Source: Microcaldota archaeon
Lineage (GTDB): Archaea; Micrarchaeota; Micrarchaeia; Anstonellales; Bilamarchaeaceae
Length of the DNA stretch: 14,645 nt
Direction of reading: 5' to 3'
Assembly: GCA_013331535.1 (NCBI GenBank)
Contig: DUGF01000027.1
Location: forward strand, 9,136-23,780
The translations under genes were made by a program, and so were the position numbers. This document shows positions 2,960 to 14,645 of this stretch, in pieces; position 1 is the first letter of the stretch, and each line of letters starts with the position of its first letter. Under the pieces are notes generated by a model that did not search any database, was not told the DNA's origin, and saw only the letters and a program-made list of their open reading frames with translations.

Positions 2960-4015
2960 ATGACCACACGTTCATCTTTCTTTGAAATCTTCGGAAGGCT
3001 TTTATCCAGAGAACAGATACGCGACATAAGCAAGCACCTTTCTGCAGCAGGCATAGAATACTCGGCAGAGGCATTTGCAGGATACTTTGTTCTTAACGTG
3101 GTCATTCTCACTCTCCTGCTTGCATTTTCCATCTGGTATGTTCCTTCTCTCAATAAGATGGTGTTCGGTCTTGTTCTTGCCATACTTCCATCTGCATATG
3201 CAGAGGTTGTTGCAATACTCTCCGTGATGCTTGCAGTGTTCGTTGTATTTTTTGTCCTGTTTTTCTTTTTGTCATCTATCCTGGTAGTTCTGACCGAAGC
3301 GCGCAGAAAAGCACTTGAAGCAGCGCTTCCAGATTTTCTTATGCTTGTTGCAGCGAACATCCGTGCAGGAATGCCGCTTGACCAGGCAATGTGGTATTCT
3401 GCAAAACCGGAATTCGGATTAATCTCAACTGAAATAAAAGGCATAATAAAAAAATCATTCAGCGGGAGTTCTCTTTCATCCGTGCTTGACGAGCTTTCAG
3501 AAAGGTTTGATTCAAAGGTTTTTGCAAGAACTGTGTCGTTGATAAAGCAAGCATCTAATACAGGAGGAGAGCTTGCGGAAATCCTTGAACGCACCTCCCA
3601 GGATGCGCGCAATTCGTTTTTAATGAAAAAAGAAATCTCTGCCTCTCTTGTGTTGTACGAAATATTTGTATTCTTTTCCGCTGCGATAGGAACTCCATTT
3701 TTGTTCTCGGTTTCATCCAAGCTTATAGGAGTTCTTGAAAAGGCATTTACCTATCTTCCAGCTACAAAAACGTCTGTACAGCAATTTTCATTCTTCAAGC
3801 CAGTTGCCCCTCTGGTTACTTCAACTGAATTTTATTATTTCACTTTGGCGGCACTGCTTGTAACTTCAATATTCTCTTCATTCATCATAGGTGTGATTCG
3901 CACAGGTTCAAAGAACGAGGGAATTAAATTCCTTCCATTTGTTGCAGTGAGCGCATTCATAGTTTATTTCATCGTGTCCACGCTTTTGGATACGTTCTTT
4001 TCAAGCATTTCTTGA
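2960..4015 (+). CDS. Type II secretion system F domain membrane protein (TadC/FlaJ-like), second of a tandem pair
   Basis: This 351-residue membrane protein is a second, clearly different platform-type subunit. Membrane segments are predicted at about 40-60, 68-111 (one long or two short), 229-258, 293-313 and 322-345. The cytoplasmic T2SSF helical domain is at about 114-225, with the recognisable NIRAGMPLDQAM stretch (133-144) and a SNTGGELAEIL stretch (199-209). The ATG is preceded by AGGTGA at 2947-2952, which overlaps the stop codon of the preceding gene, so translation is probably coupled. Many archaeal pilus loci carry two adjacent T2SSF genes or one gene with two such domains; this pair fits that pattern. 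The stop codon directly abuts the palindromic element beginning at 4016. Confidence 0.85.
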   Translation: MTTRSSFFEIFGRLLSREQIRDISKHLSAAGIEYSAEAFAGYFVLNVVILTLLLAFSIWYVPSLNKMVFGLVLAILPSAYAEVVAILSVMLAVFVVFFVLFFFLSSILVVLTEARRKALEAALPDFLMLVAANIRAGMPLDQAMWYSAKPEFGLISTEIKGIIKKSFSGSSLSSVLDELSERFDSKVFARTVSLIKQASNTGGELAEILERTSQDARNSFLMKKEISASLVLYEIFVFFSAAIGTPFLFSVSSKLIGVLEKAFTYLPATKTSVQQFSFFKPVAPLVTSTEFYYFTLAALLVTSIFSSFIIGVIRTGSKNEGIKFLPFVAVSAFIVYFIVSTLLDTFFSSIS

Positions 4016-4104
4016 TTTGAAAAATGCAAATCATTTACAAATTGTGGGTTTGATACCCCGCTGCTTGCAGCGTCCACAATTTGTAAAGTAGTGACCGAAT
4101 GAGG

Positions 4105-4137
4105 CATGTCAAGAACGACGTTTCGTTCTTGAGCATG
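4105..4137. repeat. Hairpin A of the nested element
   Basis: The sequence 4109-4118 pairs perfectly with 4123-4132 around a CGTT loop (10 pairs). CATG at 4105-4108 and 4134-4137 extends the stem past one bulged G. It contains the 16-base motif GAACG-N6-CGTTC at 4113-4128. Confidence 0.75.
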
Positions 4138-4138
4138 T

Positions 4139-4162
4139 TCATGAACGTTGCGACGTTCATGA
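4139..4162. repeat. Hairpin B of the nested element
   Basis: The sequence 4139-4148 pairs perfectly with 4153-4162 around a TGCG loop (10 pairs). It carries the second GAACG-N6-CGTTC motif at 4143-4158, exactly 30 bases after the first. Confidence 0.75.
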
Positions 4163-4165
4163 CAT

Positions 4166-4188
4166 ACCCCGCCTGCTTGCAGCGGGGT
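4166..4188. repeat. Hairpin C of the nested element (GC-rich)
   Basis: ACCCCGC at 4166-4172 pairs with GCGGGGT at 4182-4188. After one bulged C (4173), TGC pairs with GCA, leaving a very tight TT loop. A near-copy of its 5' half is present at 4053-4072 in the preceding hairpin. Confidence 0.7.
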
Positions 4189-4216
4189 CTCTTCGGTCAC
4201 TTTGATTTTTCAAAGT

Positions 4217-4238
4217 TTTGAACGATATGTCGTTCGAA
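4217..4238. repeat. Hairpin D, outside the closed element, upstream of the pilin gene
   Basis: GAACGA (4220-4225) pairs with TCGTTC (4230-4235) around a TATG loop, and the stem extends by one G-T wobble and two A-T pairs. This is the third GAACG-N6-CGTTC motif. It lies about 50 bases before the pilin start codon, where a regulator or leader structure could act. Confidence 0.6.
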
Positions 4239-4285: not shown

Positions 4286-4834
4286 ATGGTTGAAAAAAAT
4301 ATCCGCAGCCCGAAAGGCCAAGCTGCAATGGAGTATTTAATGACATACGGCTGGGCGATATTGGTTATCGTCATTGTTATTGCCGCACTATTGTTCCTGA
4401 ATCCGTTTAAGGCACCAGAAACCTGTTTGTTCCAGCAGCCTGGATTTAGCTGCTCTGAAGCAAAGCCACAGGTTTATGTTGGCGAAGACGGAGCGACAAA
4501 GGTCAGTATGAGAATCTACAACAAGCAGGGTCAGGTTGTTAAACTGAAGAAGGTTCTCTGCACGAATGTTGCCAGCGGTGATATTACCTCTGATAACGCA
4601 GACGATTTTTCAGCAGAGCCGAAGTCGGTTCCTGCTGGTGGAAGCGTTCTCTTTGCCGCAGATACGTCTGTGACCTGCAAGGATGAAAGCGGAAATGCAT
4701 TGCAATTGTCTGCAAACTCCGAGTTCAAGGGAATCATTGCATTGTGGTATAACTTTGACAATGATCCTGACCAGAGCATAGAACGGACAGCCACTGCAAC
4801 CTTAATTAGCACTGTGCTTGCAACCGGTCAGTAA
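4286..4834 (+). CDS. Class III signal peptide (pilin-like) secreted or filament protein
   Basis: This 182-residue protein has a basic N-terminus followed by the archaeal class III signal motif KGQAAMEYLMTYGWAIL (10-26) and a hydrophobic helix to about residue 38. A prepilin peptidase would be expected to cut between Gly11 and Gln12, leaving the helix as the filament core. The exposed part (about 42-182) has four cysteines (47, 56, 92, 131) that could form two disulfides, and looks beta-rich. The ATG has a strong ribosome binding site six bases upstream. It follows two TadC/FlaJ-like genes, so it is a natural candidate substrate of that machine, but the palindromic element between them suggests separate expression control. 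The signal peptide is clear. Whether this is a major pilin, a minor pilin or another surface protein is not resolved. Confidence 0.88.
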   Translation: MVEKNIRSPKGQAAMEYLMTYGWAILVIVIVIAALLFLNPFKAPETCLFQQPGFSCSEAKPQVYVGEDGATKVSMRIYNKQGQVVKLKKVLCTNVASGDITSDNADDFSAEPKSVPAGGSVLFAADTSVTCKDESGNALQLSANSEFKGIIALWYNFDNDPDQSIERTATATLISTVLATGQ

Positions 4835-5881: not shown

Positions 5882-5908
5882 TTTCCTGTTTTATTTAATT
5901 CTCTTCTC
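5882..5908 (+). terminator. T/C-rich 3' end of the unknown gene pair
   Basis: A T-rich stretch follows the stop codon and runs into the 3' end of the convergent minus-strand gene, which ends only nine bases away. It may terminate plus-strand transcription. Support is only compositional. Confidence 0.3.
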
Positions 5909-7222
5909 TTCCGCCAATTCCTCTATCGCCCATGCCGCCCTTTTCCCGGATTTTCCATCTATAGAAAGAAGCTGTTCTTTCAGGAAATTCTCACGGCTTT
6001 TTTTCATATCTTTTAAGAGTGCGGAGAAGCCACGGCCGTCAGGCCGTTGAGCGTCCCCAAGAAGACGTTTTACTACTCTGCGTATCTCTTCCTTTTTTCT
6101 CATTTCCAGTGCAACCCCTTTGCGCATATATTCTTCCGGATAAGGAATGCATGGATATGGCCTTCCGGTGAGATTCACTATTCCAACCGGTTTTCCCATT
6201 GCTATTGCGTCAAGTGCAACACTGGAAATGTCTGTTAAGACTGCACCAGAAGCGTCTATAAGGTCGTAAATGTTCGTGTCTTTGGTCACGATTACCTTGG
6301 TGCGCTGCGCCGTCGTTAGGTATCGGTCATAATCTGATTTAATTTCGCGCGGATGGATTTTGATTATAAGCTGCACGCCATCGTCTTCCATATTGCAGAC
6401 TTCTGAAACCACGCTTTTTACGAAGTATTCCATATCTTCATAGGTCCAGAGCCTTGCGCCTGCCAAATCTGATGTTGCAAGAAGAACTATTTTTTTGTTT
6501 TCCGGAATTCCGAATATTTTTCGTATGTTCGTCCGTGCGGAATACTTATCCGCGAATCGGTCATAATCCGGGTTTCCAACAACAACTACGCGGGAAGAGT
6601 CTGTTCCTCGCTCAACCAGCATTTTTTTCGTGAATTCCCCGAAAACCGCAATCTTCGTGCAGTTTCCGATTCCATAAAGCGCTCTTGGTTTTACATTGTC
6701 GTTTTGAGTTTTGTTTTTGTCTCCTATCGCACGCAATTTATCTCCAAGTCTTTTCAGCAGGTATTGCGGTTTGTAAAGTGAAAATGCCCTTAAAAGATGC
6801 CTGAGAGTGAACTTTGTTGTTGCAGTGATTACGTGATATGCTCCGTCTTGAAGGGTTATGCTTGGTATTCCAAGCTCGTTTCCTACATCAACAAACATTG
6901 CAGGAGTTACTTCGGTATAATTTCCTATTACAATAACCGAGGGCTTTTTGCTTTTTATAATCTTTCGCACCGCATCCATGCTTAATTCTTCCAGTCTTTC
7001 GTATCTAATACCCGCAGCGTTTAGTGCCTCTTCTATTCCTTCCTGCTTGAATTTGGCTATGCTCACGACTTCTAATATCCTGTGCAGTTTTCTGGCAACC
7101 GGAAGAAATTTTCTTATCTGGATGTCGTTTCCAGGAATATAAAGAACGCAACCTTCTCCACAATCCTTTCTATCGTCCATGTTTTTCCCTCTATTTTCTT
7201 CTCCGAAGATTCTTCTCTTCAT
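5891..7222 (-). CDS. GT-B-fold glycosyltransferase or CDP-glycerol glycerophosphotransferase-like surface polysaccharide protein
   Basis: The protein has 443 residues from the first ATG (7222) or 429 from the second (7180); both have purine-rich upstream sequences. It resembles the GT-B-fold group that includes CDP-glycerol:polyglycerophosphate glycerophosphotransferases and UDP-GlcNAc 2-epimerases. The N-terminal half has an opening strand (CVLYIPGND, 25-33) and VIVIGNYTEVTP (96-107). The C-terminal half has VVVVGNPDYDRF (212-223), LIIKIHPRE (285-293) and DISSVALDAIAMGKPVGIV (331-349), which in these families lie around the nucleotide-binding cleft. No membrane segment is visible. It is the last gene of a three-gene minus-strand operon after an acyltransferase and a methyltransferase, 10 bases behind the methyltransferase. 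A role in attaching sugar or polyol-phosphate units to a surface glycan is likely; the donor is unknown. Confidence 0.7.
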   Translation of the reverse strand: MKRRIFGEENRGKNMDDRKDCGEGCVLYIPGNDIQIRKFLPVARKLHRILEVVSIAKFKQEGIEEALNAAGIRYERLEELSMDAVRKIIKSKKPSVIVIGNYTEVTPAMFVDVGNELGIPSITLQDGAYHVITATTKFTLRHLLRAFSLYKPQYLLKRLGDKLRAIGDKNKTQNDNVKPRALYGIGNCTKIAVFGEFTKKMLVERGTDSSRVVVVGNPDYDRFADKYSARTNIRKIFGIPENKKIVLLATSDLAGARLWTYEDMEYFVKSVVSEVCNMEDDGVQLIIKIHPREIKSDYDRYLTTAQRTKVIVTKDTNIYDLIDASGAVLTDISSVALDAIAMGKPVGIVNLTGRPYPCIPYPEEYMRKGVALEMRKKEEIRRVVKRLLGDAQRPDGRGFSALLKDMKKSRENFLKEQLLSIDGKSGKRAAWAIEELAEEKRIK

Positions 7223-7232
7223 TTTCTCCTCT

Positions 7233-7907
7233 CTATTTTCTTCCCCACATAACTACCGGATCTCCGAATCCTGTTTTCACAAAAAGACATTTTTTTGATA
7301 AAGAGAACGGAATCGGGATTCGTTGGACTGTTTCTGCATGAAATTCGCTCCATTCTCCTGCGTTTTCAAGAATTTTTTTCCATTCCTGTCGGCTATGCGC
7401 GTTTTTATATGCAGTTTTTGCCCTCAACATCTTGAAAAAGAACGGGCGTTCGGAACTCGGCCCTGAGCAAATGAATGTTCCGCCATCCTTCAGTGCATTG
7501 TAGCAATTCTTCACAACCGCTTCGGCATTTTCAATAAGCCCGAGCGTTCCAAGGCAGGATACCATGTCAAATTTTTCATTTGCAGGAATAGGGAACGGTT
7601 TTGTTGCATCATGAATATAGAGATACGCCTCATCAATGTTTTTTCTTGCCTCGGTTATTGCATACGCAGAAACATCAAGACCGTATAATTTTTCGTATCC
7701 ATGCTCGCGGAACAATTCAAGCATATATCCGTACGAGCATCCGACATCAAGAACAGAGCGGTAGGTGCCATCTCCTCCTCTCCATTGTATTCCAAGAAAA
7801 TCAAAAAGATCCTTGTGGTATGCTTTTACGTAATCCTTTATTCCCCTATATACCTCTCTTCCTTCCTCTGTTTTGAAGTATGCATCTTTGCTGAAATCAA
7901 AAGACAT
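7233..7907 (-). CDS. Class I SAM-dependent methyltransferase (glycan-associated)
   Basis: This 224-residue protein has a Rossmann methyltransferase core. Motif I, VLDVGCSYGY, lies at 52-61, the acidic ribose-contact position is in GLDVS (76-80), IHDAT (98-102) fits motif II/III, and KFDMVSCLGTLGLIEN (112-127) is the post-strand-4 motif. The ATG is preceded by GGAGAGGAG, a good ribosome binding site. It stands between an acyltransferase gene and a glycan transferase gene in the same operon, so it probably O- or N-methylates a sugar residue or lipid-linked glycan intermediate. The exact substrate cannot be read. The C-terminal part (about 150-224) is variable and probably contacts the acceptor. 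Confidence 0.85.
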   Translation of the reverse strand: MSFDFSKDAYFKTEEGREVYRGIKDYVKAYHKDLFDFLGIQWRGGDGTYRSVLDVGCSYGYMLELFREHGYEKLYGLDVSAYAITEARKNIDEAYLYIHDATKPFPIPANEKFDMVSCLGTLGLIENAEAVVKNCYNALKDGGTFICSGPSSERPFFFKMLRAKTAYKNAHSRQEWKKILENAGEWSEFHAETVQRIPIPFSLSKKCLFVKTGFGDPVVMWGRK

Positions 7908-7948
7908 GTGAAACTCCTCTCCGTGGCAGCACTTATCTGCTTGCGTTC

Positions 7949-8638
7949 TTACTCCCTGGTTTTTATCACTTGTGCCGGAACTCCAACTGCGATAGAATTC
8001 GGCGGAATATCCTTTGTAACAACGCTGTGTGCGCCAATTACTGCACCATCTCCAATTGTAACTCCCTTAAGAATCGAAACCCCTCTTGCCAGCCATACAT
8101 TATTCCCAATGCGAACAGGTTTGGTACGAATGCGCTCTTCATTCATAGTTTCGCTTGCATTTGTGTCGTGGTCTGTGTCTATTATCATCACAAATCCGGA
8201 AATAAGACAGTTGTCGCCAATTTCTATTTTATCAAATGCGTTAATGTTTGCAAGCTGCCCAAAATAACAGTTTTTGCCGATTTTCAATGTTCCGTTATAC
8301 GCAGTATTGAGCCGCACCATTTTCTCAAGATGCGTTCCGCTTCCGACATCTATTTTTCCGTTGTCCCTTGCCCAGATTTCGCAATTTCCATCCAGTCCGA
8401 CTTCATCGTCAAGTATAATCTCCCCTTTATTATATGCCCGGAAGCTGTTCCATCCGCTCAGTCTTACGTTCTTGCCAATATGTTTGCATTTTCGCAGGAT
8501 GTTAATGCGGTTCAATATCAGGAATGGGTTAAGCGCATCTACGAGCCGGTCCAGTACTATTTCTAATGTTTGCCAGAATCCATATTTTGCGATAAAGCCG
8601 GTTAGTTTTCTTATCACGTGCACTGGGTCGTACACCAT
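7949..8638 (-). CDS. Left-handed beta-helix (hexapeptide repeat) acyltransferase, probably sugar O-acetyltransferase
   Basis: This 229-residue protein is of the WcaF/Maa/NodL-like acetyltransferase type. It has an N-terminal helical section (about 1-55). Repeated hexapeptide turns follow: IGKNVRLSG (54-62), DDEVGLDGNCEIWA (77-90), IGKNCYFG (120-127), IGDNCLISG (140-148), IGNNVWLARGVSILKGVTIG (177-196) and VVTKDIPPNSIAVGVPAQVI (207-226). The loop containing DTDHD (154-158) carries the expected catalytic histidine (His157). Such enzymes transfer acetyl from acetyl-CoA to sugar hydroxyls or amines. It is the first gene of the minus-strand glycan operon and diverges from the aminotransferase gene. 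An A/T-rich TATA-like stretch lies just upstream, and the message may be nearly leaderless. Possible substrates include the nonulosonate sugar or another glycan unit. Confidence 0.85.
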   Translation of the reverse strand: MVYDPVHVIRKLTGFIAKYGFWQTLEIVLDRLVDALNPFLILNRINILRKCKHIGKNVRLSGWNSFRAYNKGEIILDDEVGLDGNCEIWARDNGKIDVGSGTHLEKMVRLNTAYNGTLKIGKNCYFGQLANINAFDKIEIGDNCLISGFVMIIDTDHDTNASETMNEERIRTKPVRIGNNVWLARGVSILKGVTIGDGAVIGAHSVVTKDIPPNSIAVGVPAQVIKTRE

Positions 8639-8653
8639 GGTAATACCTAATCC

Positions 8654-8666
8654 CCATATATTTTAA
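8654..8666 (-). promoter_or_regulatory. Candidate TATA box for the minus-strand glycan operon
   Basis: On the minus strand this reads TTAAAATATATGG, about 22-25 bases upstream of the acyltransferase ATG at 8638. That spacing fits a leaderless or nearly leaderless archaeal message, and no strong ribosome binding site competes with this reading. Confidence 0.4.
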
Positions 8667-8679
8667 TCCTTGAGGGTAT

Positions 8680-8690
8680 AGTATATTTTA
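8680..8690 (+). promoter_or_regulatory. Candidate TATA box for the aminotransferase gene
   Basis: AGTATATTTTA lies about 36-40 bases before the ATG at 8723, placing transcription start around 8710 and leaving a short leader that includes GGTG at 8713-8716. It makes 8639-8722 a divergent promoter region shared with the minus-strand operon. Confidence 0.45.
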
Positions 8691-8722
8691 CGTAATTGTT
8701 TATTGGTTTTCTGGTGTTTTAT

Positions 8723-10042
8723 ATGACCAACTCTAACTCTGGACTTGAATTGTGGAAGCGTGCAAAACAGATTATTCCGGGCGGTTCTCAATTGCTTTCA
8801 AAGCGTTCTGAAATGTTTCTTCCTGATCAATGGCCTTCATATTATTCAAAAGCAAAAGGTATTAACGTCTGGGACCTTGATGGAAATAAATTCACGGATA
8901 TGTGCATAATGGGTATTGGTGCATGCATTCTTGGTTATGCAGATGATGACGTAAATCGTGCGGTAAAAGATCGCATCGATCGCGGCAATATGGCAACATT
9001 TAATTGCCCGGAAGAGGTTGAGCTTGCGGAAAAATTAATCTCTCTTAATCCCTGGGCAGGCGGTGTGCGATATGCACGAACTGGCGGAGAATCCATGTCA
9101 ATGGCTGTTCGCATTGCGCGCGGTTCTTCCAAACGCGATAAAATCGCATTTTGCGGCTATCACGGCTGGTCTGACTGGTATCTTGCAACCAATCTGAAGA
9201 ATCCGAACGGTTTGAATGACCATCTTCTTAAGGGTTTGGAGCCGCTCGGAGTTCCTCAAAACCTCAGCGGTTCTGTATTGCCGTTTCATTACAATAAGAT
9301 TGAGGAACTTGAGGCAATAATTGACCAGAATAAGGATATCGGCGTAATCGTTGTTGAGGCAATCAGAAGCCAGAAGCCTGAAAATGATTTTCTTGGGAAG
9401 GTTAGAAAAATCGCAGATGAAATCGGTGCGGTTCTTGTTTTTGATGAGATTACTTCTGCATGGAGAATGACTATTGGCGGTGCATATCCAATGTTTGGAG
9501 TAAAACCAGATGTTGTTGTATTCGGAAAGGCAATGAGCAATGGCTATCCCATGGCAGCGGTTGTTGGAAAGGCAGAAGTGATGGATGTGGCACAGCAAAG
9601 CTTTATCAGCAGTACTTACTGGTCTGAGGGGGTCGGGCCTACTGCTGCATTGGCAACCATCGGGAAGCTCGAAGCGCGGGATGTTCCAAAGTACATTGTG
9701 GAAATTGGAAACTATGCCGGGCAGGTCTGGGAAAGGCTTGGAAAGGAAAGCGGATTAAAGTTGCATGTTGATTTCGGTTTCCCGCCGATAATGCATTTTG
9801 ATTTTGAATATGAGAACAAACTCGCAATAATGACTTTTTTCACGCAGGAAATGCTGGCACGAGGATATCTTGCCACGGGCGGGTTCTATGTTTCTTATGC
9901 ACATCAGAAAGCGGGCGTAGATAAATATGGTGAGGCTGTGGGAGAAGTCTTCAAGCTGATAAAAAATGCAATTGATAACGGAACCGTTGAGAAACAGCTA
10001 AAAGGGCCAGTGAAGCATTCTGGGTTTCAGAGACTGACCTGA
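8723..10042 (+). CDS. Class III PLP-dependent aminotransferase (glutamate-1-semialdehyde-aminomutase-like) in a nonulosonate/glycan cluster
   Basis: The protein has 439 residues from the ATG at 8723, preferred over an in-frame TTG at 8696 because GGTG (8713-8716) sits six bases before it. Fold-type I class III features are present. TGGES (120-124) forms the phosphate-binding cup and GYHGW (145-149) is the ring-stacking region. VFDEIT (239-244) carries the PLP-pairing Asp241, and FGKAMSNGYP (267-276) carries the PLP-binding Lys269. This group includes HemL-type aminomutases, but carbohydrate loci often hold relatives that aminate keto-sugars. Here it stands beside a SpsF-type cytidylyltransferase and a Gfo/Idh oxidoreductase, so an aminotransferase step on a keto-sugar is a reasonable inference. 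In the standard pseudaminic pathway that step is done by a different (DegT/DnrJ-type) family. HemL itself is less likely because of the context. Confidence 0.85.
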   Translation: MTNSNSGLELWKRAKQIIPGGSQLLSKRSEMFLPDQWPSYYSKAKGINVWDLDGNKFTDMCIMGIGACILGYADDDVNRAVKDRIDRGNMATFNCPEEVELAEKLISLNPWAGGVRYARTGGESMSMAVRIARGSSKRDKIAFCGYHGWSDWYLATNLKNPNGLNDHLLKGLEPLGVPQNLSGSVLPFHYNKIEELEAIIDQNKDIGVIVVEAIRSQKPENDFLGKVRKIADEIGAVLVFDEITSAWRMTIGGAYPMFGVKPDVVVFGKAMSNGYPMAAVVGKAEVMDVAQQSFISSTYWSEGVGPTAALATIGKLEARDVPKYIVEIGNYAGQVWERLGKESGLKLHVDFGFPPIMHFDFEYENKLAIMTFFTQEMLARGYLATGGFYVSYAHQKAGVDKYGEAVGEVFKLIKNAIDNGTVEKQLKGPVKHSGFQRLT

Positions 10043-10107
10043 GAATATTCTTTCCAGGTGGAGAACTCTGGTCTGATTAGAATGCATGGGAAGTGCCCCA
10101 ATCTTCT

Positions 10108-10896
10108 CTACCCCACCTTTTTATCCTCTCTCATCGATTTCTCATACCCTTCATTCCTTCCGAACCCCTTATTTATCTCGATTACTTTCTTATTCCTCTC
10201 AATTGCCTCAAAAACATCTTTTCTTGTGAAGCTGTGGGTCCTGCCTTTATCCCCCAACAATCCGTAAATTGCACGAACGAATTCCAAATCCTGTGGCTCA
10301 TCCACCGTCCATCTCATTTCAGAAAGATCTCCGCCTTCTTCATTTGTTACATTAAAAATATGGAATTTATCCGGTTGTTTCCAGATATATGGGGTAACAT
10401 GCTCGCGTTCTGACTGGAGTTTTGCTTCTTTCCATGCACGTTCAAGCGTTGCAAATGAGAACACTTCTGTGTCCAGTCCATCTGGATAAGTTGGTGGCTG
10501 GGTATTGCAAACATAATCATATTTTCCATTGGATTTAACGAACGTACCAACTACTTTATCTACAACCTCAGGGTCAAGAAGCGGACAATCTGCGGTAACA
10601 CGGACAATCACGTCTCCGGTTTCGGTGCCATTTGCCTTTGCTGCCTGGTAATACCTGTCCAGCACATCATTTTCACTTCCCTGAAAATATCCAACGCCTT
10701 CGCTTTTTGCAAACTGTGCGATTTTGTTGTCCGCCTCGTTTGTCGTGGTGGCAACAACAATTTTGTTTATAGTTTTTGATTTTTTGAGCCGCTGGATTAC
10801 GTGCCATAAAAGCGGCTTTCCGTTCAGTTCAGCCATTGATTTTCCGGGTAATCTTGTAGAACCAAGCCTTGCCTGAAGAATTGCGATAATTGTCAT
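10108..10896 (-). CDS. spsF: SpsF-type cytidylyltransferase (probable CMP-nonulosonate or related nucleotide-sugar synthase)
   Basis: The protein has 262 residues from the ATG at 10896, chosen because AAAGGTGA lies seven bases upstream and the protein then opens with the family signature. A longer form beginning at 10917 overlaps the stop of the preceding gene but lacks support. The signature ILQARLGSTRLPGKSMAEL (6-24) is the nucleotide-binding loop of the SpsF/KdsB-like transferase family. VRVTADCPLLDPEVVD (98-113) carries metal-binding aspartates, followed by EREHVTPYIW (163-172) and MRWTVDEPQDLEFV (194-207), the latter a hallmark of this family. The enzyme would activate a sugar acid with CTP. 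Next to a PseI/NeuB-type synthase it is the best candidate for making the CMP-sugar, in place of the more usual PseF/NeuA family. It forms an operon with the oxidoreductase upstream. Confidence 0.85.
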   Translation of the reverse strand: MTIIAILQARLGSTRLPGKSMAELNGKPLLWHVIQRLKKSKTINKIVVATTTNEADNKIAQFAKSEGVGYFQGSENDVLDRYYQAAKANGTETGDVIVRVTADCPLLDPEVVDKVVGTFVKSNGKYDYVCNTQPPTYPDGLDTEVFSFATLERAWKEAKLQSEREHVTPYIWKQPDKFHIFNVTNEEGGDLSEMRWTVDEPQDLEFVRAIYGLLGDKGRTHSFTRKDVFEAIERNKKVIEINKGFGRNEGYEKSMREDKKVG

Positions 10897-10913
10897 TTCA
10901 AAGTCACCTTTTT

Positions 10914-11909
10914 TCATACGTGTATTATTTTTCCTTTTTCCGGTGATTTTTTCGCAGCAAGGGCAACCGCAAGGCTTTTCTTTCCCTCATCCCCGTCCAC
11001 GAGCGGCTTTCCATTAGTTTTTATGCACTCGATAAACTGTTTCATTTCTTCAACGTACATTTCATTAGGTTCGCATTTCACGTCAATGGTTTCGGTTTGT
11101 TTTGTTTCCGCACGATATATCTCTATTACAGCTTTTGTATAATCCCATTTTATCGTTCCTTTTTCCCCAATCAATTCGCAATTGCGTGCATAATCCTGCC
11201 TTACGAAATCCATATGGATCTGGGCAATTGAACCGCTTTTGAATTTGAGTGTCATATCTGCAGTATCCTCGGTTTCGACCTCAAGATTACTTACTTTTGC
11301 AGCAATACAACCAACTTCCACAACTTCTCCCATCAACCATCTCGCATAGTCTATCTCATGTGAATCATCAAGAATTATCCCACCGCCCATGCTTTTGCTT
11401 GCGGTGTAGCTTTTTCTATAATCTTGCGTTGGCCTCCATAATGGAAGATACTGGCCAAAAAGAATTCTTGCTGACACTACCCTGCCAATTGCGCCCGAAT
11501 CTACAAGCTCCTTTAATTTCGCAATTCCCTTATGAAAACGAAGATTGTATCCAACTGCAATTATTTTTTTCCTTTTTGCCGCAAATTTAAGAAGTGCATC
11601 CACTCCTTTGCCATCATGAGAAATCGGTTTTTCAATGAACACGTGCGCTTTGGCAGCAAGCGCCTGTTTTGCAATCAGGACATGCAAATGCGGAGGGGTG
11701 CAGACAAGCGCTGCATCTGGTTTTTCTTTACTGAGCGCATCCTTTAGCTCTTCAAAGGTCTTGATTCCTAGATTCTCTTCAATCCATTTTCTATTATCCG
11801 GAACAATATCTGTCCCGATAACCTCTTCTCCAAGTTCTTTGAGGTTTTTTGCATGCCTTCTGCCTATTGAGCCACAGCCGATAATAAGAAATTTCATTAT
11901 ATCACTCAT
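10914..11909 (-). CDS. Gfo/Idh/MocA-family NAD(P)-dependent sugar oxidoreductase
   Basis: The protein has 331 residues from the ATG at 11909; an internal ATG four codons later (start MKFLIIGCG) is also plausible. The N-terminal Rossmann domain has FLIIGCGSIGRRH (7-19), Asp34 in GTDI as the likely cofactor-ribose contact, CTPPHLH (70-76) and the family motif EKP (93-95). The C-terminal alpha/beta domain has the catalytic-region motif DDSHEIDYARW (181-191). Such enzymes oxidise or reduce sugar hydroxyls, and homologues occur in nonulosonate clusters. It is followed 17 bases later by the SpsF-type gene, forming an operon. Its ATG lies about 22 bases from a TATA palindrome shared with the divergent glycosyltransferase, suggesting leaderless transcription. 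The substrate is not identified; the aminotransferase nearby may act on its product. Confidence 0.88.
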   Translation of the reverse strand: MSDIMKFLIIGCGSIGRRHAKNLKELGEEVIGTDIVPDNRKWIEENLGIKTFEELKDALSKEKPDAALVCTPPHLHVLIAKQALAAKAHVFIEKPISHDGKGVDALLKFAAKRKKIIAVGYNLRFHKGIAKLKELVDSGAIGRVVSARILFGQYLPLWRPTQDYRKSYTASKSMGGGIILDDSHEIDYARWLMGEVVEVGCIAAKVSNLEVETEDTADMTLKFKSGSIAQIHMDFVRQDYARNCELIGEKGTIKWDYTKAVIEIYRAETKQTETIDVKCEPNEMYVEEMKQFIECIKTNGKPLVDGDEGKKSLAVALAAKKSPEKGKIIHV

Positions 11910-11928
11910 TGTTCTTTTCGTCAGAGAA

Positions 11929-11934
11929 TTATAA
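11929..11934. promoter_or_regulatory. Shared bidirectional TATA box (TTATAA)
   Basis: This palindromic TTATAA sits 25-26 bases before the glycosyltransferase ATG at 11957 (plus) and 22-23 bases before the oxidoreductase ATG at 11909 (minus). Both distances are the archaeal TATA-to-start spacing expected for leaderless messages, and no ribosome binding site lies in front of either ATG. Confidence 0.55.
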
Positions 11935-11956
11935 ACCTTTCTTCCGAATACTTTTC

Positions 11957-12799
11957 ATGGTCAAATCCGAGTCCAAATCTAATTGGAATCTAATAATTCA
12001 TATTCCTGCATATAATTCAGAGAAATCCCTGCCAGAACTTCTTCTACGGCTTGGAAAATCAGTTGAATCATTGAAAAAAAGCGGAATAACCACAAAACAG
12101 GTTATTGTAATTGACGACGGAAGTACGGACGGAACTGCGAATGTTATTCGCAGTGCGACTCGCGATGCGGAAAAAAAACTTCAGTCTAATCTTCCACTTG
12201 CGTTAATCCAGAAAAAGAAAAATGAAGGTCCGGTTGCTGCGGTTCTTGATGGAATGAAAGCCGCGCTTGATTTTGCTGATAAAAATGGCTTAACCCTGGC
12301 AAATACAATTATTCTTCGCATGGATTCTGACCTTGAGCACCAACCAGAGGATATTGAAAGGGTTCTTGATGCAGTGGTTTCAGGAGCTGCAGATGTTTCC
12401 GTGGGTTATATTCATTTTGATTCCAGAAATGGCCTTCTTGCCCCGTTTTTCAACGAGATGGTTGGCCTGAGTGAAAGCTCTCTATTGGGAATGGGAATCC
12501 CGCAATTCTGTCCTGGTTTTGTGGCATTCCGTGCGCATATTCTGAAAAAGGTCTATCCGAAATTAATAAACGCGTCCGAGCGGTTCAAAAAAACATTCGG
12601 AATTGAGATGGTAACATTAGATTTCGTGGCATTAGCAATGGCAAAACTCGAATTCAGTTCAACAATAGAATCCGTGCGGCTCTCACCAATAGAAAACAAA
12701 TGGATAAAGAAAATTCCATTAGGGAAGTTGTGGAAATATCTTGATTTACATAAAAAAACGATGGAGTTTTTGAAGAAATATTCCATTTCTCAGGAATAA
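11957..12799 (+). CDS. Family 2 (GT-A fold) glycosyltransferase
   Basis: The protein has 280 residues from the ATG at 11957. A more upstream in-frame ATG (11909) is rejected because the TATA box at 11929-11934 lies downstream of it. The protein opens with a classic GT2 N-terminus: IIHIPAYNSEKSLPELL (13-29), then VIDDGSTDGT (51-60) for nucleotide binding and RMDSDLEHQPED (121-132), whose Asp-Ser-Asp is the metal-binding DXD motif. The C-terminal part (about 170-280) contains CPGFVAFR (185-192) and a hydrophilic tail, with no clear membrane anchor, so it is probably peripheral. GT2 enzymes build glycan chains or load dolichol phosphate. It lies in the nonulosonate cluster but has its own promoter and opposite direction to its neighbours. 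The donor and acceptor sugars are unknown. Confidence 0.87.
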   Translation: MVKSESKSNWNLIIHIPAYNSEKSLPELLLRLGKSVESLKKSGITTKQVIVIDDGSTDGTANVIRSATRDAEKKLQSNLPLALIQKKKNEGPVAAVLDGMKAALDFADKNGLTLANTIILRMDSDLEHQPEDIERVLDAVVSGAADVSVGYIHFDSRNGLLAPFFNEMVGLSESSLLGMGIPQFCPGFVAFRAHILKKVYPKLINASERFKKTFGIEMVTLDFVALAMAKLEFSSTIESVRLSPIENKWIKKIPLGKLWKYLDLHKKTMEFLKKYSISQE

Positions 12800-12801
12800 C
12801 T

Positions 12802-13491
12802 TTAACGTTGATAGAGTCCAGCTCTTCTTCCTGGAGATTGCGGTGGTGAATCACAAAATTTTTTTCCAGGAACCATAGGCGCTGTTTCATATCTCCATAC
12901 TGTTGCTTGAAGCGGACCTCTTGTAAATCGTTTACCAGTTCTTTCCATATACGCAGAGTTTGCCTTTTCTCTATCATCTTCTGAAAAAATTTTACCGTTG
13001 TGATCATAGCGGAAAACGTATAACTGAATAAGACCAAAATATTCTTTCTTAATACATATCTCTACATATGCATGGGCCGCGGCTTTACTAACCTGTTCTA
13101 TAATATCAGAACTAGCATGTATTAGAAATCTTGAGTGGCCATTTACACCCAATGCAATGTCATAAACTTTAGTTAAATGGACGGAACCATTCCCAGAGTC
13201 TTCTTTGGCTAGTTCGATGATTATTCCAAAATGACCAACAATAGCAGCGTCTCTAACCTTTTGGGTCAAACCATAGTTTTTTGCTGTGTCAGATAAGCGG
13301 GCGTATTCTCGTTTTTCAACACACCATTTTACGTACTCTGTGCCCGCAGTTTCTGCACGCTCTGGATGTGATCTATCTAATGCATTGTTCAGCATGGCAT
13401 CCAAATCTACAGTTACTGGTTGTTTTGAGATAGTCCTTGCATCAATTGCTTTTCTATACCAGGCACCTAAATCGTATTCATCCATATCCAT
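12802..13491 (-). CDS. Unknown 229-residue protein with its own promoter
   Basis: I do not recognise this family. The start ATG at 13491 is fixed by a TATA box at 13518-13525, which puts transcription start within about five bases of it. No signal peptide or membrane segment is visible. The first 150 residues look like consecutive amphipathic helices (LDAMLNNALDRS, 30-41; YVKWCVEKREYARLSDTAKNY, 53-73; VRDAAIVGHFGIIIELA, 79-95; KAAAHAYVEICIKKEYFGLIQ, 136-156). The pattern recalls helical solenoid repeats, though no repeat consensus can be shown. The C-terminal 60 residues are charged and end in a Pro/Arg-rich tail. It interrupts the sugar genes between the GNAT gene and a convergent glycosyltransferase whose stop is only two bases away. 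Nothing in its sequence suggests carbohydrate metabolism, so it may be an unrelated insertion. Confidence 0.75.
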   Translation of the reverse strand: MDMDEYDLGAWYRKAIDARTISKQPVTVDLDAMLNNALDRSHPERAETAGTEYVKWCVEKREYARLSDTAKNYGLTQKVRDAAIVGHFGIIIELAKEDSGNGSVHLTKVYDIALGVNGHSRFLIHASSDIIEQVSKAAAHAYVEICIKKEYFGLIQLYVFRYDHNGKIFSEDDREKANSAYMERTGKRFTRGPLQATVWRYETAPMVPGKKFCDSPPQSPGRRAGLYQR

Positions 13492-13517
13492 TACCCAATA
13501 TATTATTGTTGAAAAGA

Positions 13518-13525
13518 TTTATAAA
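13518..13525 (-). promoter_or_regulatory. TATA box of the unknown 229-residue gene
   Basis: On the minus strand the sequence reads GGTTTATAAATC, about 31 bases upstream of the ATG. It implies a leader of only a few bases, so this gene is transcribed independently of the GNAT/synthase operon that ends at 13559. Confidence 0.5.
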
Positions 13526-13558
13526 CCATTCTATAACACAAAAATAAACACAATTAAT

Positions 13559-14008
13559 TCAAAGTGAAAATTCATATAGCACGTATTCCTCATTTCCGCC
13601 CTTCCTTTCAAACCCGTTCTTTTCAAAAATCTTTTGCGAGGGGATATTATCTGGTTTAACCCGTGCAATTAGTCTGGTTATCCCAAATCCTGCCGCGATT
13701 TTCTTGGTTTCAGCTATCGTGGCAATCCCAAGTCCTTTACCCCGGAATCCTGGCGCAATAAGTATGTTTATTTCGTATTCTCCGCTTTCTTTTTTGTCGA
13801 GCCGCACTAAACCAGCGTCAGTGCCTTCTAATACTGCAATGTATGAATAATTCGTTTTGTCAGCCAGCCGCATTGTCCAATACGAAGAGTGTTCTTCCCA
13901 TTTTATTTCAGAAGTCTGGAAACTGTTTGCCCTTACGCCAGGATTGTTGCGCCATTCAAGTATCTTTTTTATGTCCGCTTCGGTTACCGGACGAAGTTTC
14001 AGTTCCAT
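13559..14008 (-). CDS. GNAT-family N-acetyltransferase, probably in nonulosonate (PseH-like) biosynthesis
   Basis: This 149-residue single-domain protein has the GNAT fold. The N-terminal block LRPVTEADIKKILEWRNNPGVR (5-26) and EHSSYW (39-44) are typical of the sugar N-acetyltransferases found in pseudaminic and legionaminic acid loci. The acetyl-CoA-binding motif A is APGFRGKGLGIA (85-96). ARVKPDNIPSQKIFEKNGF (115-133) is the C-terminal motif B region. The expected reaction is transfer of acetyl from acetyl-CoA to the amino group of a 4-amino sugar nucleotide, or a related acylation. Its start lies 13 bases after the stop of the synthase gene with GGTGG upstream, so the two are an operon. 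The exact substrate is inferred from context; ribosomal-protein RimI/RimJ-type acetylation is a less likely alternative. Confidence 0.82.
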   Translation of the reverse strand: MELKLRPVTEADIKKILEWRNNPGVRANSFQTSEIKWEEHSSYWTMRLADKTNYSYIAVLEGTDAGLVRLDKKESGEYEINILIAPGFRGKGLGIATIAETKKIAAGFGITRLIARVKPDNIPSQKIFEKNGFERKGGNEEYVLYEFSL

Positions 14009-14021
14009 TACAATTCCACCA

Positions 14022-14645
14022 TTACCCGATCATGCTCATTTCCAGAGGAGTTCCTTTTTTCAAATCATTTTTTGCAACCTTGTCAAGTATCTCCTCATAA
14101 TGCTTTGGATGAAGGCCATTTCCCGGTCTGACCACGCGAACATTCTTTTTGGTGAGTTTCTCCCCCTTCCTGATGTCTTCGGCTACAAAAATAGATCTCA
14201 TAGCAAAAAGGTGTTTTTTTGTCTTCTCTCCGAGTTCGTATGTTACTTCTCCGAGTGCCTCTTCTGTTTCCCTGATTGCCTTTACCATTGCCTTTAATTC
14301 CGCAGGTTCAAGTGAAAATTCCACATCTGGTCCTCCGAGATTACGATCTAGTATAAAGTGTTTTTCTATTACTTTCGCTCCGACTGCAACTGCTGCCACG
14401 GCTACATTTGGATTCATGCTGTGGTCAGAAAGTCCAGATACCACTCCAAATCTTTTGGCAAGGTCTGGTATAGTATTCAGATTCATTTCATTCAGCGGTG
14501 CTGGATACGCACTGGTGCATTTCAACAATATGATCTGATCATTTTTCTGTCCGCGTATCGTTTGCACTGCCAATTCTATATCCGCGCTCGTAGCAACTCC
14601 GGTAGAGACCATAATCGGCTTTCCGAGACGCGCAACATGCTTTAT
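14022..14645 (-). CDS. pseI: Nonulosonic acid synthase, pseudaminic acid synthase type (5' end outside the window)
   Basis: The frame stays open to the right edge, so only the C-terminal 207 residues are present. The in-frame ATG at 14612 is internal, since it follows ARLGKP, a core strand region of the family. The enzyme condenses phosphoenolpyruvate with a six-carbon sugar to make a nine-carbon sialic-acid-like sugar. The TIM-barrel part shows LLKCTSAYPAP, SGLSDHSMNPNVAVAAVAVGA and EKHFILDRNLGGPD. This is followed by a C-terminal SAF (antifreeze-like) domain with RSIFVAEDIRKGEKLT and RPGNGLHPKHYEEIL. GGPDVEFSLEP and the GLHPK form of the SAF domain favour the PseI (pseudaminic) branch over NeuB or LegI, but the branch is a judgement from memory. 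It is the first visible gene of an operon with the GNAT gene. Confidence 0.85.
   Translation of the reverse strand: MKHVARLGKPIMVSTGVATSADIELAVQTIRGQKNDQIILLKCTSAYPAPLNEMNLNTIPDLAKRFGVVSGLSDHSMNPNVAVAAVAVGAKVIEKHFILDRNLGGPDVEFSLEPAELKAMVKAIRETEEALGEVTYELGEKTKKHLFAMRSIFVAEDIRKGEKLTKKNVRVVRPGNGLHPKHYEEILDKVAKNDLKKGTPLEMSMIG

Follow-up and report, generated by a model that had tools for sequence, protein, structure and literature searches.

A 199-base palindromic structure between archaeal pilus genes as a probable stack of nested mobile palindromes

Introduction

In-frame protein-coding palindromes are known to us mainly from Rickettsia and its relatives, and we know of no transposition mechanism for them. 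Double-hairpin elements that are short, mobile and merging occur in fungal mitochondria; to our knowledge they contain no protein-coding frame.

Intragenic REPs and RPEs have been reported from bacteria (PMC10969869, PMC3733652). The cited sections of these two reports describe RPEs as palindromic repeats of about 150 bp which are found in frame in unrelated protein genes and also outside genes, encoding a conserved peptide. Insertion sequences of the IS200/IS605 type, as outlined in the cited section of PMC7290912, lack terminal inverted repeats, do not duplicate their target, integrate on the 3' side of a fixed short sequence and have hairpins at their ends; the forms consisting of the ends only are termed PATEs.

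Here we analyse a structure of 199 bases between two archaeal pilus genes. It is probably a stack of insertions, in which an element A entered an older palindrome and an element B later entered A.

Results

Position and fold of the structure

The structure is located at positions 4016-4214 of the window, which is the whole stretch of 14,645 nt that was analysed and which belongs to a 1.18 Mb draft genome (84% complete). As given in the preliminary description, it starts with the base after a stop codon, namely the TGA at 4013-4015 of the upstream gene (2960..4015, plus strand) for a T2SSF / TadC-like archaeal pilus platform protein (PF00482, E 3.4e-14). It also lies, as described, between platform and pilin genes and ends 71 nt 5' of the ATG (4286) of the downstream gene (4286..4834, plus strand). 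The product of this gene, which has no Pfam match, is presumably a class III signal-peptide pilin, judging from the signal motif (KGQAAMEYLMTYGWA). A surface-sugar cluster occupies 5891-14612 of the window (NeuB family, cytidylyltransferase, GFO/IDH, class III aminotransferase, glycerophosphotransferase-like).

All helices that had been named for 4016-4214 were found in the RNA fold. The expected excess of folding energy over shuffled controls was likewise borne out: the minimum free energy was -92.7 kcal/mol (z -11.8) for the plus-strand RNA, -93.9 (z -11.5) for the minus-strand RNA and -63.8 (z -13.7) for the plus strand folded as single-stranded DNA, and in each of the three foldings 0 of 200 shuffles gave an equal value. 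With the covariance models of Rfam 15, no match above the gathering score was obtained within the window.

Three nested layers

The structure had been read as a single design. Instead it is made up of three layers, a host palindrome, element A and element B. When the window is rejoined around A, the minus strand reads TTTGAAAAATG ATTTG CATTTTTCAAA, an 11-bp palindrome; therefore the outer part of the "closing stem" is regarded as an older host palindrome. Its left arm (TTTGAAAAATG, 4016..4026) and its right arm (ATTTTTCAAA, 4205..4214) are defined by the rejoined site with its 11-bp stem and by the fold. Prior to the insertion, 4016-4026 could have paired with C4032 and 4205-4214, leaving a 5-nt loop in between.

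Element A (4033..4204, minus strand) comprises 172 nt, consisting of a 114-nt element and a 58-nt insert, and is situated 3' of AAT (minus strand) without a target duplication. Fold and covariation define two hairpins, both on the minus strand. Hairpin 1 (4034..4087) has the outer stem TTTACAAATTGTGG/CCACAATTTGTAAA and the inner hairpin CGCTGCTTGCAGCG. Hairpin 2 (4090..4201) has the outer stem GTGACCGAA/TTCGGTCAC and the inner hairpin CCCCGCCTGCTTGCAGCGGGG at 4167-4187, and is split by B. Element B (4107..4164) is a 58-nt double hairpin of the form TGTC..GA-GCATGT-TC..GACA that occupies the internal loop of hairpin 2; its ends are ambiguous by 1-2 nt (microhomology). Of the helices described before, A comprises the hairpin 4034-4087, the stem 4091-4103/4189-4200 and the hairpin at about 4165-4187, and the remaining two internal hairpins form B. 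A further small palindrome (GAACGATATGTCGTTC, 4219-4237), similar to the stems of B, is found close 3' of the structure.

A search of the source genome with the 199 bases found query positions 18-92 and 149-195 contiguous at one locus (G000:C81; genomes, contigs and loci carry our handles G, C and L), and positions 91-151, that is B, recurring alone at other places. Consequently, the C81 copy is an A without insert, and B is an insert. Copies of both parts are dispersed in the source genome and in its relatives. The proposal of a MITE-like palindromic element thus holds for the type of element, but there are two nested elements, and A lacks both terminal inverted repeats and target duplications.

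Distribution and covariation of A and B

A and B represent two distinct families of dispersed repeats in Micrarchaeota. With a covariance model made from an alignment of 7 A copies, the window copy with B left out, A was detected in 10 of 59 genomes including the source genome. Among 295 genomes of the phylum (E 1e-4) 15 carry A; 12 of them are from the same family, two from one other family of the order and one from elsewhere in the class. Several copies per genome are present in G000, G009, G041 and G156. The genomes are drafts, the named ones being MAGs. If neither interrupted nor deleted, A measures 111-114 nt, usually 113-114 nt, and forms two complex hairpins. The exact pattern of A was matched at six named loci, five of which are Candidatus Micrarchaeota, from 4 MAGs; viral contigs of IMG/VR gave no match to one exact A pattern. 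The sixth locus is on a Muribaculaceae contig (L129 6122-6149), where the pattern covers 22 bases (19 of them fixed) and 28 bases align with 89%; this match is probably due to chance.

The covariance model of B was made from an alignment of 16 copies, all of which (16/16 rows) extend over 58 nt from TGTC to GACA. Among the matches listed, B is present in at least 15 of the 59 genomes, and copies often match on both strands, B being quasi-palindromic. The weaker of these matches may represent double hairpins of other kinds.

In A, 11 of 39 pairs show compensatory changes and 94.1% of the cells are paired; in B, these are 9 of 20 pairs and 280 of 280 cells in 14 distinct rows. For neither element was the covariation score reached in 500 shuffles. 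The same holds for four of the five covariation measures; by the fifth, "further pair types", neither A (17 of 500 shuffles) nor B (289 of 500) is outstanding. The border and inner-hairpin sequences of A are also conserved among the aligned copies. Covarying pairs, previously named as a mark of a conserved copy upstream of the pilins, are therefore present in A and B, but they belong to dispersed elements.

It could be argued that the perfection and covariation of the stems arose at the DNA level, by hairpin-templated repair or by gene conversion between copies, and are not the result of selection on folded RNA or single-stranded DNA. The complete pairing of B in spite of differing sequences would agree with this, as would the folding of the units on both strands. 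The stems of A, however, keep imperfections and bulges across genera (94.1% paired), and sequence is conserved at its borders and inner hairpins too, so that we consider a DNA effect unlikely.

The platform-pilin junction in relatives

It had also been suggested that a structured RNA uncouples pilin expression from the platform genes. As a conserved function this is not borne out by the relatives with a readable pilin, in which the junction is without the structure. A match to the platform gene was found in 48 of 49 genomes, including the source genome. We fetched 24 relatives with the platform gene; in 21 the pilin was readable by its motif, start codons being picked by script. The gap between the two genes is -26 to 73 nt in these 21 relatives, not more than 25 nt in 20 of them, compared with 270 nt in the window, and a conserved pilin regulator was rejected on these grounds. 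The junctions of those relatives are neither among the A matches of the 59-genome search nor among the B matches listed.

Another reading is a cis-acting RNA (attenuator, processing or stabilising element) that selection maintains at this locus to uncouple the pilin from the platform mRNA. Its very stable fold on both strands, its covarying stems and its position exactly between platform and pilin genes would be in line with such a role, which is nonetheless improbable, as the structure is missing from the orthologous junction of the 21 relatives whose pilin could be read, copies are found within or next to unrelated genes and the window has no Rfam match. Most likely the window copy of A would be a neutral or mildly polar passenger and not a regulator; a local effect of the insertion on the pilin mRNA is possible.

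Insertion sites of element A

The borders were analysed at 16 sites, namely the A copies with both ends readable that were known before the search of the 295 genomes; copies from that search were judged separately. Left out were copies at contig ends (G009:C125 and four in G049), the two weak matches in G007 and G012, and G000:C76. The 16 copies start with (C/G)A(A/G)NG(T/C)GA and end with AAT. Positions -2 and -1 before A are AT at all 16 sites, and position -3 is A at 13. Behind A, the first base is G in 9 of 16 cases and the second and third bases are A in 14. A direct repeat of at least 3 nt between the flanks was found at 0 of 16 sites, and A has no terminal inverted repeats. By this border analysis a classical MITE (TIR + TSD) was rejected for A.

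The Pop5 orthologue of G019 represents an empty site. There nothing is lost or doubled and AT is host sequence, which, as the DNA of one orthologue, supports the assignment of AT to the host target side. In G156 a relative of A has spread recently: seven copies at seven places share 99-100% identity over 116-117 nt. All seven near-identical copies are flanked as AT-element-GAA, and as AT and GAA are constant around them, both might be part of the element rather than of the target. A thus shows recent movement by insertion that prefers certain sites and leaves no target duplication.

We also inspected the rejoined A sites for stems across the junction. Stems of at least 8 bp are present at 3 of 16 sites, compared with 1.2% of the 6479 AT sites that served as background (P 0.0009), and stems of at least 5 bp at 9 of 16, compared with 23% of the background (P 0.004). 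At other thresholds the values are 3 of 16 (at least 7 bp, P 0.011), 4 of 16 (at least 6 bp, P 0.057) and 11 of 16 compared with 55% of the background (at least 4 bp, P 0.2). The result is mixed over the thresholds and, because these were chosen post hoc, it is only suggestive of an aiming of A at palindromic host sites.

Element A inside genes

On the minus strand of an undamaged A, frame 0 is open, and its 114 nt correspond to 38 codons (QCDRRDPTASRWGIPHSVTTSQIVVAASSGVSDPQFVN in the C81 copy). In G014, A is inserted in frame in the Pop5 gene (PF01900, E 1.4e-13) and in the NFACT gene (PF05670, E 2.2e-27). The element is absent from all 16 aligned Pop5 orthologues (16 of 25 fetched loci, the 25 including the query and element-only matches) and from all 19 aligned NFACT homologues (the best 19 of 456). 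In G003 a copy shorter by 33 nt is read through with the frame kept in an ORF of 397 aa that has no Pfam match. A copy of 111 nt in G006 uses another phase and is open into a GNAT gene, and a copy in G009 with the same frame as in Pop5 runs off the contig end. The length is divisible by 3 in 5 of 6 in-gene copies versus 2 of the 10 remaining copies (P about 0.02 in a one-sided Fisher test calculated by hand).

Not every in-gene copy is harmless. In the source genome the phase of a copy in a HepT-like gene meets a stop, a copy with a nested hairpin insert (L082, G041:C24) leaves a gene out of frame that we take to be HIT-like from its motif, and an antisense copy (L210, G156:C8) splits an ORF. 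At gene ends A supplies the stop codon, namely of a tRNase Z-like gene, a class I tRNA synthetase gene and a gene that is presumably Fic-like. In G173, two genes whose starts resemble signal peptides have A in antisense orientation at their 5' end (L216, C29; L215, C11), and A may provide their start codon and first residues.

In the structure predicted by AlphaFold for the insert-bearing NFACT protein (mean pLDDT 77.8, pTM 0.64), residues 200-235 have a pLDDT below 50 and are placed between the strands 192-197 and 238-243. According to this model, a floppy loop may be the reason why the insert is tolerated.

That the in-gene copies are archaeal-type introns cut out by the tRNA splicing endonuclease, which would make the frame irrelevant and would suit the strong conserved fold of A in Pop5, NFACT and other genes as well as the out-of-frame copy in the HIT-like gene (G041:C24), is hardly credible, since A is open throughout in the Pop5, NFACT, 397-aa ORF and GNAT genes, the lengths of in-gene copies tend to be divisible by 3, the copy in the 397-aa ORF lacks 33 nt with the frame kept, and the consensus fold leaves both borders of A unpaired.

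Element B and other nested double hairpins

Several copies of A, from different genera, carry further double hairpins (G013, G041, G049, G156), for example L045 603-997, L094, L084 and L235. We counted 16 inserts of at least 15 nt in A, without the tandem duplication in L081. Seven of these are exactly 57 nt long with different sequences, although two of the seven rows represent one repeat found at two contig ends; the other nine measure 30, 31, 31, 52, 54, 58, 60, 91 and 108 nt. G156 has three distinct inserts of 56-58 nt in A, and those in G241 and G216 are shorter. The length of A itself, 114 nt, equals 2 x 57 nt. Many insert sites, which are uncertain by a few nt, are in apical loops, in the internal loop or near a bulge or the junction between the hairpins. 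A recurrent site, between CCCCA and CTGC, is inside a predicted stem.

At ten loci (L003, L004, L006, L007, L008, L016, L018, L021, L022, L032) B seems to be the core of a larger composite, a hairpin ..TTGGTTCAGTATGTC[B]GACATAGATTGAGACGG..GTCTCGGGATA with variants.

Comparison with IS200/IS605 elements

The two inner hairpins of A are in direct orientation and have the form CCCC(A/G)CTGCTTGCAG. Hairpins of the type CCCC-(A/G)C(A/T)GCTTGC were found beside Y1_Tnp in 3 of 12 Micrarchaeal neighbourhoods (G020, G033, G026) and were absent from the other 9 examined. Y1_Tnp genes are present in 11 of 40 genomes and in 3 of 5 genomes carrying A; in the source genome, an 84% complete draft, there is a fragment only. 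An autonomous element with the ends of A was not found in 12 + 3 Y1 neighbourhoods, and both Y1 genes of G156 have ends other than those of A. The hairpins and the insertion mode suggest single-strand transposition of the IS200/IS605 type for A, and the similarity of the short, GC-rich hairpins to those of the Y1 neighbourhoods could also be convergence. A different machinery may move B and the other double hairpins.

In G000:C97 (L134) a B copy is about 0.4 kb away from the Y1 fragment, and in G018:C26 (L133) the sole B of this genome among the matches listed is about 1.5 kb away from its sole Y1 gene. In neither case do they form a flanking pair.

Discussion

For the structure in the window, the most probable course of events is the following. 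A, a non-autonomous palindromic element of canonically 114 nt, would have inserted first into the older palindrome downstream of the platform gene, following an AAT of the minus strand and causing no target duplication. B, a different mobile double hairpin, would have entered the internal loop of A afterwards. A may move as a single strand folded into its two end hairpins and may be moved in trans by a Y1 (HUH) transposase of the IS200/IS605 type. Inside genes A could be tolerated by virtue of one open frame, a length that is a multiple of three and 38 residues forming a disordered loop, as proposed for RPE.

A wider idea is that a family of DPANN palindromes moving as single strands aims at hairpins, so that units of a near-constant 57-58 nt enter loops, bulges and junctions of existing palindromes, the structures grow by nesting and some are translated in core genes. 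We put this forward as a tentative proposal. The insert positions may reflect either hairpin targeting or the survival of only such insertions.

The archaeal A family combines duplication-free sites, open frames in core genes (the RNase P protein Pop5, NFACT), recently amplified copies and hairpins that resemble those beside some IS200-type genes. By these features the movement and the tolerance of such elements become testable. The locus is also a warning that very stable, covarying intergenic folds need not be regulatory RNA, as nested mobile palindromes leave the same signature.

Of the known systems, the GC clusters of fungal mitochondria, for instance GC42 in the cited section of PMC4478555, resemble A and B in being short mobile double hairpins that merge, but they reside in organelle DNA and have other sequences. 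B resembles the REPINs, as far as the cited section of PMC3116915 describes them, in being a symmetric hairpin pair of fixed length with compensatory changes and dispersed copies. It differs from REPINs and BIMEs in that no GTAG or CGTC tag is present at its ends (TGTC/GACA in 16/16 rows) and in that it is nested in another palindrome.

Like the PATEs of the section cited from PMC7290912, A has two subterminal imperfect hairpins and no terminal inverted repeats, it causes no target duplication (0/16; empty Pop5 site of G019) and it is situated 3' of a fixed short target (AT at 16/16 sites and at all seven copies in G156), although borders alone do not separate element from target. In contrast to PATEs, no parent with the ends of A was found in the 12 + 3 Y1 neighbourhoods, A has an open coding frame, and each of its inner hairpins is enclosed in a long outer stem.

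A also resembles the RPEs. It is palindromic, has several copies per genome and, with 111-114 nt, is within the RPE size of about 100-150 bp; it is inserted in frame in unrelated genes whose orthologues are without it (Pop5, NFACT). Unlike RPEs, A belongs to an archaeal phylum, is built of two complex hairpins, the inner hairpins of which are IS200-like, inserts clearly after AT without target duplication and has other double hairpins nested inside. The top-ranked open-licence literature contained neither in-frame palindromic elements of archaea nor such repeats in Micrarchaeota, which is weak evidence of novelty. A would be a new, archaeal form of the in-frame palindromic elements, nested with the REPIN-like double hairpin B. 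Likened by description, and with no membership claimed, A is by its behaviour an archaeal counterpart of the RPEs.
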